Positions 2 through 6,197 of a DNA stretch of 64,000 nucleotides are shown here, in pieces. The stretch is from Bifidobacterium breve. Its GTDB lineage: Bacteria; Actinomycetota; Actinomycetes; Nanopelagicales; Nanopelagicaceae. The stretch lies in contig CAMDHH010000001.1 of NCBI GenBank assembly GCA_945898065.1, positions 98,830 to 162,829 on the forward strand, given 5' to 3'. Made by a program: the position numbers and the translations under genes. The notes beneath the pieces were generated by a model that worked only from the letters and a program-made list of their open reading frames with translations, was not told the origin of the DNA and did no database searches. Within the stretch, counting starts at the first letter, position 1. The number at the start of each line of letters is the position of its first letter.

Positions 2-694
2 TCACCTCTGATTTTGGCCCTTGACACATCTGATCTTAAAACGGCTCACGAATGGATTGAAAATACTCGAGACTCAATTGGTCTCTATAAATTGGGACTT
101 GAGTTTTTTAGCATGTTTGGTAGCAAAGGTGTTGCGGAAATTGTGAGCCAACACGATGTTGATATATTTCTCGATTTGAAATTGCACGACATCCCACACA
201 CTGTCGCTGCTGCTACACGTGCCGTTTCACATCTCAAACCACGATTTTTGACGGTGCACGCATCCGGTGGATCAGCAATGGTTACAAGCGCGGTTGAAGC
301 CGCTCCCAATGCACATATAACTGCAGTGACTATTCTGACATCGCTATCAGATGAGGATGTAAGTGCTGTTGGATATGCCAAGAATGCATTGCTTAGCGCC
401 GCACAATTAGCGGCTCTTGCAGTGCACGCTGGTGCGCGTGCGATTGTTTGTTCTCCTTTTGAAATTGAAGCGATCCGTAAATCTGTAGGAAATGAGCCAA
501 TAATTATCACCCCAGGTGTTCGTCCTGCTGATTCACAAGGTAGCGATGATCAAATCAGAGTCATGACTCCTGCGCAGGCACTCTCACGTGGAGCAAATTT
601 TGTTGTCATTGGTCGCCCTATCACTTCACTCTGGTCGCAAGGAGCGCTAGCGATGAAAGAGAAAGCTGCGCAGATTCTTGCGGAAAGTATTTAG
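2..694 (+). CDS. pyrF: Orotidine 5'-phosphate decarboxylase, 5'-truncated by the window edge
   Basis: ORF 14-694; frame is open to base 2 (SPLILALDTSD...). LALDTSD, LDLKLHDIPHTV and ITPGVRP motifs are typical of PyrF. Confidence 0.93.
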   Translation, partial: SPLILALDTSDLKTAHEWIENTRDSIGLYKLGLEFFSMFGSKGVAEIVSQHDVDIFLDLKLHDIPHTVAAATRAVSHLKPRFLTVHASGGSAMVTSAVEAAPNAHITAVTILTSLSDEDVSAVGYAKNALLSAAQLAALAVHAGARAIVCSPFEIEAIRKSVGNEPIIITPGVRPADSQGSDDQIRVMTPAQALSRGANFVVIGRPITSLWSQGALAMKEKAAQILAESI

Positions 695-716: not shown

Positions 717-1592
717 ATGCCCACTCCTCCCAAACTCACACCAGAAGAGCGAGCGGCTGCTCTTGCTAAGGCATCAATTGCTCGAAAGCGCAGGGCGGAG
801 ATCAAGGCAGAGATCAAGTCGGGCAATTTAGATATCCAAGGCGTGTACGAGTTATCACAGAGTGACGATGCGGTTTCAAAGATGCGCGTTGCCGAAATGC
901 TTGAATCGATTACGGGTGTAGGAAAAATTAGGGCTCTAGCCATGATGGATAGACTCAACATTTCTCCAACAAGACGCATCAAGGGTTTGGGCACAAATCA
1001 ATTGAAGAACCTTTTATCGGAATTCTCTCCGACCTCTACAAAAGCTAAGCGTGGAAGACTTATTGTTTTATCTGGCCCAGGTGGAGTTGGTAAGAGCACT
1101 GTTGCTGCGCAACTGCGCGCGACAGGTGATTACTGGGTAAGTATTTCTGTAACAACTCGATTACCGAGAATAAACGAAAAGGATGGAGTTGATTACTACT
1201 TCATCAATAACGTTGAGTTTGAAAAAAGAATTCGCGGGTCATATTTCTTAGAATGGGCACAATTTGCTGGAGCAAAATATGGAACGCCGCGAGAAGGCGT
1301 AGAACAAGCACTCCTTGATGGCCACAATGTTTTACTAGAGATAGAAATTGATGGTGCAAAGCAAGTGAAATCGCATATGCCAGAGGCGATGTTGGTATTT
1401 CTTTCACCACCTAGTTGGGAAGATCTAGTATCAAGGCTTGAGGGACGCGGCACAGATAGTCCTGAGAGACGAACAGAACGCCTGGCGCTGGCCCAAGAAG
1501 AAATAGCTGCTGCCCCTTCTTTTGACCTTGTAATCGTCAATACCTCGGTCAAAGAGGTTGTCGACCAACTGGTATCCTTGCTCTCTGCTTAG
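717..1592 (+). CDS. gmk: Fusion protein: N-terminal actinobacterial integration host factor (mIHF) + C-terminal guanylate kinase
   Basis: One uninterrupted 291-aa ORF. Residues ~1-105 mIHF-like (ITGVGKIRALAMMDRLNISPTRRIKGLG); residues ~112-291 guanylate kinase (LIVLSGPGGVGKST, SVTTRLPR..DGVDYYFI, YGTPR). Confidence 0.92.
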   Translation: MPTPPKLTPEERAAALAKASIARKRRAEIKAEIKSGNLDIQGVYELSQSDDAVSKMRVAEMLESITGVGKIRALAMMDRLNISPTRRIKGLGTNQLKNLLSEFSPTSTKAKRGRLIVLSGPGGVGKSTVAAQLRATGDYWVSISVTTRLPRINEKDGVDYYFINNVEFEKRIRGSYFLEWAQFAGAKYGTPREGVEQALLDGHNVLLEIEIDGAKQVKSHMPEAMLVFLSPPSWEDLVSRLEGRGTDSPERRTERLALAQEEIAAAPSFDLVIVNTSVKEVVDQLVSLLSA

Positions 1593-1636: not shown

Positions 1637-1885
1637 ATGGACGGCATCACAAATCCACCAATTGATGAACTTTTAGATAAGAGTGGTTCGAAGTATGGTC
1701 TCGTTCTTTACGCAGCAAAGCGTGCGCGTCAGATAAATGCATATTATTCACAACTAGGTGAAGGTCTTCTTGAGTATGTCGGACCACTAGTTGAAACGCA
1801 TGTACACGAGAAGCCACTTTCAATAGCCCTACGTGAAATCAACGAAGGTTTATTGACAATCGAAAATCTCGAACCAACCGCGTAA
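1637..1885 (+). CDS. rpoZ: DNA-directed RNA polymerase omega subunit
   Basis: 82 aa; [29 protein letters not shown]; located between gmk and coaBC. Confidence 0.93.
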
Positions 1886-4307: not shown

Positions 4308-6197
4308 ATGGCAACACCTCGTCTTTTTCTTCTCAAGTCTGAGGTAATTGCTAAGCCAGCGGGCGAAATTGCACTTGATGCACCGATTGCTCGTATCTGG
4401 GTGGAAACGGGTGTCGATCATTTAGATCAGCCATACGACTACCTGGTGCCGCAAGCGCTTTCATCTCGAGTCGCTGTTGGTATTCGAGTTCAAATTCCAT
4501 TTTCACATCATGAAGTAGAAGGCATTGTTATATCAAGACATTCGAGTGCCCAAACCGGCGCAAAACTAAAGAGTATTACTAAAGTGCTTTCAAATTTTTC
4601 TGTTGCAACGCCTTCTTCTCTAAAACTCTACGAACGCGTTGCCAATCATTTTGCAGCCTCAACGAGTGACGTCCTTCGAAGTGCGATTCCTCCACGTGTC
4701 GCAAGTGCAGAAAAGGGCAGAAGTGCTTACGAAGCAATACCTGATGAAAAAAAGAAATCTAGGCAGAGAGTTGAGTTTATAGCTTTAGCGCCGCACATCT
4801 CGCCATTAGAACAACTAGCAGGGCTAATAGATGTAGGTAGCGGCTCACCGCTCGTTATTGTTCCCGACGAACGAGATTTACTCTCTTTAGCCACCCTGTG
4901 GAACGAAAAGAATCCAGGCAATGAGGCAATTACTCTTGGAAGTTCATTGAGTCGAAGCGAAAGATACAAAAATTATCTAGATTCCCTATCTCAGTCAAAA
5001 AGATTAGTCATAGGAACTCGCAGTGCAATCTTTGCGCCCGTTGCAAACCTTGCCTCAATTATCGTCTACAAAGAATCTTCTCCTGATTATTTCGATCCTC
5101 GTTCTCCTGGATGGAATGTTGGAGATGTAGCACGGATGCGCGCCTCTGATGAATCTGTAGATCTACTTTTTCTATCATTTGTTCCTTCACTCAATATTGC
5201 CCGTGAGATTGATCAACGTCGTATCAAATACATTCATGAATCGCACCGCTTGAGCGTACGAGCATTTTCTCCATTGCCAGCGCAATTACTACCTGATCGA
5301 ATCTTTCAACCTGTCCGAGATGCAATCAAAAAGGGACCAGTCCTCTTCTTAGTTTCGCGAAAAGGTTATGCAAGTGCGTTGATATGTGGACAGTGCAGAA
5401 ATTTTGCTCTTTGTGCTTGCGGTGGACGTGTAAAAATTGTCGCAGGTAATAAGCCACCTCAATGCTCGCACTGCGCGGGGGAGTTTCCAACATGGAGATG
5501 CGCATGGTGTAAAAGCGATAAACAGTATGCGGGAGGAAGAGGCATCGATCGTGCAAGTGAAGAGATCGGACGCGCATTCCCTAATGTCACAATCATCTCT
5601 TCTTCAGGAGATTCAATAAAGAATGAAATTTTGGATGAAAAGTGCATTGTTATATCAACTCCTGGGGCTCAACCGATTTCAAAAAATGGGTACAGCGCTG
5701 TAGTGATCCTGAATGCCTTAGCGTTCTTCTCTCATGATGATCTTTGCGCAGGGGAGCGTGCTCGAGAGATGCTTTTCGAAACATGTGGACTTGTCAAAAA
5801 GGATGGTCAGATACTTATTGCGATAGATGATGCGCATCCAATTATTGGCGCGATCACTCAGTGGAACCCTGCAACAATGATTCAGAGAGAGTTGCGCGAA
5901 CGTGAAGAACTTTGCCTTCCACCTTTCGAGAAGAGCGCATATCTTCGTGTTTCAAGCGAGGAAGTGACCCAGCTTGTATCCGGCCTTCGTAGTTCCATCG
6001 CTTCTGGACGCTTGAATTCAACGGTATCGATCTTAGGTCCTGTTGAGTTAGGTAATGATGAATCAAAAATCATCCTACGCTTCAATGAGAAAGATCATGA
6101 AAGTACTGCAATTTTCTTACGTGAACTACAACGCAAACGTGGAATTGCCAAGAAGCCACTTCTATATATTCGAATAACTCCATACTCACTCGCGTAA
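4308..6197 (+). CDS. priA: PriA-like primosomal protein N', helicase motifs degenerate
   Basis: N-terminal 3'-binding domain, four CxxC/CxC zinc motifs (CGQC, CAC, CSHC, CAWC) and synteny with metK/def/fmt; no Walker A, and DEEH replaced by YKES. Confidence 0.85.
   Translation: MATPRLFLLKSEVIAKPAGEIALDAPIARIWVETGVDHLDQPYDYLVPQALSSRVAVGIRVQIPFSHHEVEGIVISRHSSAQTGAKLKSITKVLSNFSVATPSSLKLYERVANHFAASTSDVLRSAIPPRVASAEKGRSAYEAIPDEKKKSRQRVEFIALAPHISPLEQLAGLIDVGSGSPLVIVPDERDLLSLATLWNEKNPGNEAITLGSSLSRSERYKNYLDSLSQSKRLVIGTRSAIFAPVANLASIIVYKESSPDYFDPRSPGWNVGDVARMRASDESVDLLFLSFVPSLNIAREIDQRRIKYIHESHRLSVRAFSPLPAQLLPDRIFQPVRDAIKKGPVLFLVSRKGYASALICGQCRNFALCACGGRVKIVAGNKPPQCSHCAGEFPTWRCAWCKSDKQYAGGRGIDRASEEIGRAFPNVTIISSSGDSIKNEILDEKCIVISTPGAQPISKNGYSAVVILNALAFFSHDDLCAGERAREMLFETCGLVKKDGQILIAIDDAHPIIGAITQWNPATMIQRELREREELCLPPFEKSAYLRVSSEEVTQLVSGLRSSIASGRLNSTVSILGPVELGNDESKIILRFNEKDHESTAIFLRELQRKRGIAKKPLLYIRITPYSLA

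Follow-up and report, generated by a model that had tools for sequence, protein, structure and literature searches.

Why should a nucleoid protein and a guanylate kinase be made as a single polypeptide, and what could the cell gain from it? The question is raised by an open reading frame near the beginning of the window, a 64,000-nt stretch of contig CAMDHH010000001.1 to which all coordinates refer. An earlier note on this DNA had read the frame as an actinobacterial IHF (mIHF) joined to guanylate kinase (Gmk). The relevant features are as follows.

14..694, + strand: pyrF, upstream neighbour, whose true start may precede the window (NF001273, TIGR01740)
717..1592, + strand: fused mihF-gmk open reading frame, 291 aa, ATG start
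729..1025, + strand: actinobacterial IHF domain, residues 5–103 (NF041260; PDB relatives 4itq/6bek and 6tob)
972..983, + strand: RRIK, residues 86–89, within the basic stretch PTRRIKGLG common to mIHF and sIHF (PDB-chain alignment)
1026..1052, + strand: linker, residues 104–112, variable in sequence and without in-frame ATG, GTG or TTG (pLDDT dip at residues 101–110)
1053..1586, + strand: guanylate kinase domain, residues 113–290 (TIGR03263; fold match to Mycobacterium tuberculosis Gmk)
1074..1097, + strand: P-loop GPGGVGKS, residues 120–127 (sequence)
1152..1205, + strand: guanylate kinase signature TTRLPRINEKDGVDYYFI, residues 146–163 (sequence)
1637..1885, + strand: rpoZ, downstream neighbour (TIGR00690)

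Translation of positions 717–1592 gives 291 amino acids with no internal stop, and the two full domains do lie in one frame, as the earlier note had it. Both NCBIfam matches exceed their curated cut-offs: NF041260 (actino_IHF) scores 117.7 bits against 60 and spans model positions 3–101 of 102, while TIGR03263 (guanylate kinase) scores 206.4 bits against 160.45 and spans positions 1–179 of 180. Pfam places H2TH_5 at residues 33–103 and Guanylate_kin at 113–290 of the same protein. The gap between the domain matches (residues 104–112) agrees with the linker of about ten residues described before. A stop or frameshift at the junction had been named as a finding that would undo the fusion. None is present, and the frame is unbroken in fused relatives at 39–90% identity, including those at 74–90%, which rules out a sequencing or assembly error or a frameshift.

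The residues expected to matter are conserved across 57 aligned fused proteins. Within the mIHF part, G92 and Q95 are invariant and R87, G90 and L91 nearly so; RRIK is presumably a DNA contact. Invariant residues of the kinase part are G120, P121, V124, G125 and K126 in the P-loop and T146, T147, R148, R151, E154 and Y160 in the segment that follows the guanylate kinase signature pattern. An AlphaFold2 model based on the alignment of these 57 proteins has a mean pLDDT of 94, a dip at residues 101–110 and a pTM of 0.68, scores to be expected if both domains are well folded but their relative orientation is not fixed. The N-terminal domain is predicted to bind and bend DNA, and the C-terminal domain to convert GMP to GDP.

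Each half closely resembles a known protein. Residues 4–105 align with mIHF of Mycobacterium (PDB 6tob) and sIHF of Streptomyces (SCO1480, PDB 4itq/6bek), TRRIKGLG is kept, and the gmk-rpoZ neighbourhood is shared with their loci. However, mIHF and sIHF are separate proteins of about 105–110 aa, whereas here the domain forms the N-terminal third of a kinase. The Gmk domain is 46% identical to M. tuberculosis Gmk (Rv1389, PDB 1s4q/1znw), with the same fold, P-loop and signature residues, but the M. tuberculosis enzyme is stand-alone, while this one is preceded by mIHF across a junction that lacks its own start codon. The mihF gene of M. tuberculosis is followed directly by gmk and rpoZ, both of which had to be supplied when it was deleted, owing to polar effects (PMC6155035). 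The genes around the fused frame are pyrF, rpoZ, coaBC, metK and a priA-like gene. The last of these (4308–6197) scores far under the cut-offs of all PriA models and thus may encode a diverged PriA, perhaps helicase-deficient.

Adjacent but separate mihF and gmk genes had been supposed to be usual in actinobacteria, and this holds in most other actinobacteria. The fusion itself is far from rare. A survey of Nanopelagicales, which the earlier note had suggested, covered 151 genomes from 15 genera and found a match in all of them. By hand count from the resulting table, 128 of the 151 carry the fusion (two of these cut by contig ends), 21 have a split pair (three of which appear as one match with an internal stop) and 2 have a marginal match only. 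Within Nanopelagicaceae, the fused genera are g1, g2, g3, g4, g6, g9, g10, g12 and g14, and the split genera are g5, g7, g8, g11, g13 and g15. The class sample shows the fusion in the window's family and in one other only, f36, where it occurs in 110 of the 118 genomes with a match (hand count). This second family is probably Microbacteriaceae, to which Clavibacter belongs. Among the 111 genomes of the phylum sample, the window's genome alone is fused. Many genomes of that sample, from outside the class, have mihF and gmk in phase but separated by one stop, frequently TAG (for example G424, G439, G413, G443 and G466).

Fusions in the two families have the same domain order and a single frame, but those of f36 mostly have a longer linker and a more diverged mIHF, and their origin is separate. 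A tree of 121 rows, built from concatenated mIHF and Gmk, requires three changes between the fused and split states, and the AU test rejects a constraint that places the Nanopelagicaceae and f36 fusions in one clade (p = 0.0046, or 0.005 when rounded). The fusion has arisen at least twice. The split genera g7 and g11 sit beside one of the two fused Nanopelagicaceae clades, which implies either a pair of fusions in the family or a single fusion followed by a re-splitting; comparison of one against two fusions within the family favours neither (p = 0.40). One f36 locus, L143 (G296), has its mIHF and Gmk matches in separate frames and no clear stop/start junction, which probably reflects sequencing frameshifts rather than a true split in this single-contig genome of 86% completeness.

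The split relatives indicate how the fusion may have come about. Pairs in g5, g7, g8, g11, g13 and g15 share both genes, their order and the short junction with the window's gene, but occupy two frames or are interrupted by an in-frame stop, and give two proteins. In several, the stop and start codons overlap, as in ATGA or TGATGA (L085, L086, L089, L090, L091, L092 and L094), and one (L080) has an in-phase TAG with an ATG immediately after it. Such junctions suggest that the pair is translationally coupled and therefore only one or two mutations away from fusion. Judging from these arrangements, the fusion would be a small step, probably taken when the stop codon between adjacent and coupled mihF and gmk was lost, or through a small indel there. 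The earlier note was thus right that the fusion is genuine, but it missed how common it is, the second family, the two or more origins and the coupling in unfused relatives.

The fusion also appears to be the only copy of either gene. The window's genome has a single match, although its assembly is 84.8% complete and a second copy is possible there. Eight single-contig genomes of the same genus have one whole-protein match each and exactly one actinobacterial IHF each, always within the fusion. No second copy of mihF or gmk was found in the window's genome, at that completeness, or in the closed genomes of the genus, and from the latter it follows that the fusion should supply both functions. 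All eight genomes tested encode HU, seven of them by a single gene, so mIHF is not the sole nucleoid protein; RelA/SpoT is encoded by one gene in each of the eight.

The two halves do not share the same fate everywhere. In three single-contig f36 genomes (G297, G378 and G381), Gmk is present without any match to actinobacterial IHF, a fourth (G300) has only a marginal, partial one, and no IHF domain is present in the sequence upstream of gmk in these genomes. Consequently, the mIHF half can be dispensed with while the kinase stays. In several small-genome lineages (L145–L149 and L169), gmk stands alone and mihF is apparently missing from the genome.

The favoured reading, with a probability of about 0.72 for the whole, is that one bifunctional chain fixes the co-production of two coupled neighbour genes, that its domains are independent, and that the fusion gene is the cell's sole source of mIHF and GMP kinase. 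The domains would fold and act separately on either side of a short, variable linker. The main outcome would be fixed co-production, and placement of the kinase on the nucleoid would probably be a side effect. Several signs suggest independence: the linker varies, the domain placement looks unfixed, some lineages have lost mIHF, and mIHF changes faster relative to Gmk. The ratio of mIHF to Gmk change is 1.58 and 2.07 in the fused sets compared with 0.84 in unfused families of the class, although it is already 1.35 in unfused members of the window's family. Some considerations count against this reading, the possible second copy in the incomplete assembly among them. Both mIHF in M. tuberculosis (PMC6155035) and sIHF in Streptomyces (PMC3784963) are very abundant, and a 1:1 ratio of such a protein with a metabolic enzyme would be unusual. 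In addition, an obligate fusion may not be neutral, to judge from relatives that may re-split the pair or make free Gmk.

Whether Gmk is also made on its own depends on starts within the frame, a caveat that the earlier note had raised by pointing to codons 105–115. The junctions of 76 fused genes from Nanopelagicaceae and 36 from f36 were mapped for in-frame ATG, GTG and TTG codons, with junction codons numbered back from the P-loop glycine. The caveat applies to many relatives but not to the window's gene. There, no ATG, GTG or TTG lies at codons 105–115; indeed, the gene is free of them between codon 96 and the kinase core, and an internal start at its junction was rejected. The junctions of its nearest relatives likewise have none. 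Upstream of the core, the last codon that could serve is TTG at codon 96, where Shine-Dalgarno pairing is weak. The kinase should therefore be made as the fusion only, and from the codons present there would be no evident route to free Gmk short of cleavage.

The situation differs in the clade of g3, g4, g6, g9, g10, g12 and g14, where a start codon occurs at codons −17 to −13 in 35 of 36 genes. The codon that serves varies by species, yet one is nearly always retained. For example, in g3, Ile at −14 pairs with TTG at −15, while Met at −14 goes with another Leu codon at −15. This is the least expected part of the picture. It may mean that a full fusion is made together with a free Gmk begun at the old gmk start within the frame, the start and its ribosome-binding site being under selection. 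Such a nested gene is reasonably probable for g3, g4, g6 and g9 and may extend to the main subclade within the window's genus; the window's gene is excluded from it. Where the clade's genes lack Met at the junction, TTG or GTG is present in 20 of 21, against 8.0 ± 2.2 expected from synonymous resampling. The junction ranks first for this excess among 159 windows along the gene, with z = 6.8 compared with 2.9 for the best window elsewhere, and anti-Shine-Dalgarno pairing upstream reaches −6.0 kcal/mol compared with −4.05 ± 0.35 in resampled sequences, none of 100 being as low. The main g1 subclade, in the window's genus, has ATG at −16 in all 25 genes. Against this, the rows are related, and the excess persists after thinning at 80% identity but weakens at 70% (p = 0.01). 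Pairing is strong mainly in g3 and g4, and g9, g10 and the g1 subclade show weak pairing; z reaches 4.6 elsewhere in the gene in other groups; and f36 shows no start-codon excess at codons −19 to −16, the junction start being missing there as in the window's gene and its nearest relatives. The kept starts nevertheless suggest that many fused Nanopelagicaceae make some free Gmk as well, probably in addition to the fusion, while the window's lineage would make the fusion only.

Two further explanations concern the joined protein itself. The earlier note had proposed that the fusion links GMP/(p)ppGpp metabolism to DNA. On this account, the only GMP kinase of the window's lineage and f36 would sit permanently on a DNA-bending protein, GDP/GTP would be made at the nucleoid, and GMP, ATP or (p)ppGpp on Gmk might alter DNA binding, each activity influencing the other. 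Fixation of the fusion in many genera, on at least two occasions, fits this, as does the single RelA/SpoT gene, and, the fusion gene being single-copy, the kinase of the window's lineage would always be tethered. Furthermore, lowered GTP is reported in a review to carry the effect of (p)ppGpp on transcription in Actinobacteria (PMC10107265). Such regulation is nonetheless unlikely and gains no specific support here: the linker is variable and domain placement unfixed, relatives retain a route to free Gmk, several lineages of f36 dropped mIHF beside a gmk that they kept, and mIHF changes faster relative to Gmk in the fused sets. The other explanation, that the chain is cut after translation in an exposed linker to give mIHF and Gmk, is likewise improbable. 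The linker is short, variable, rich in Ser, Thr, Lys and Arg, and modelled with low confidence, as a cleavage site might be, but the junctions have no common cleavage motif. A 10 kDa 'integration host factor' is listed in a secretome table of Clavibacter nebraskensis (PMC7839047); this would favour cleavage if it derives from a fusion gene, but it may be the product of another gene.

In dozens of genera, and on at least two independent occasions, one chain has come to join a nucleoid protein to an essential GTP-synthesis enzyme, each single-copy. Related lineages cover every stage, namely overlapping genes, an in-phase stop, fusion with an internal start, fusion without one, and loss of mIHF. 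They therefore form a natural series for asking whether a fusion was selected for function or is a by-product of translational coupling. Both families are well known, and no paper describing the fusion was found among open-licence literature on IHF with guanylate kinase. The model type of NF041260, 'equivalog_domain', suggests that its curators were aware of longer carriers. The junction starts kept in relatives are newly noted here. When named genomes were scanned with one protein as the query, only close relatives and some kinases unrelated to it turned up. The same fusion is present at 90% identity in a metagenome-assembled genome labelled Bifidobacterium breve (L032, CAMCCH010000001.1), which is probably a misnamed Nanopelagicales genome.
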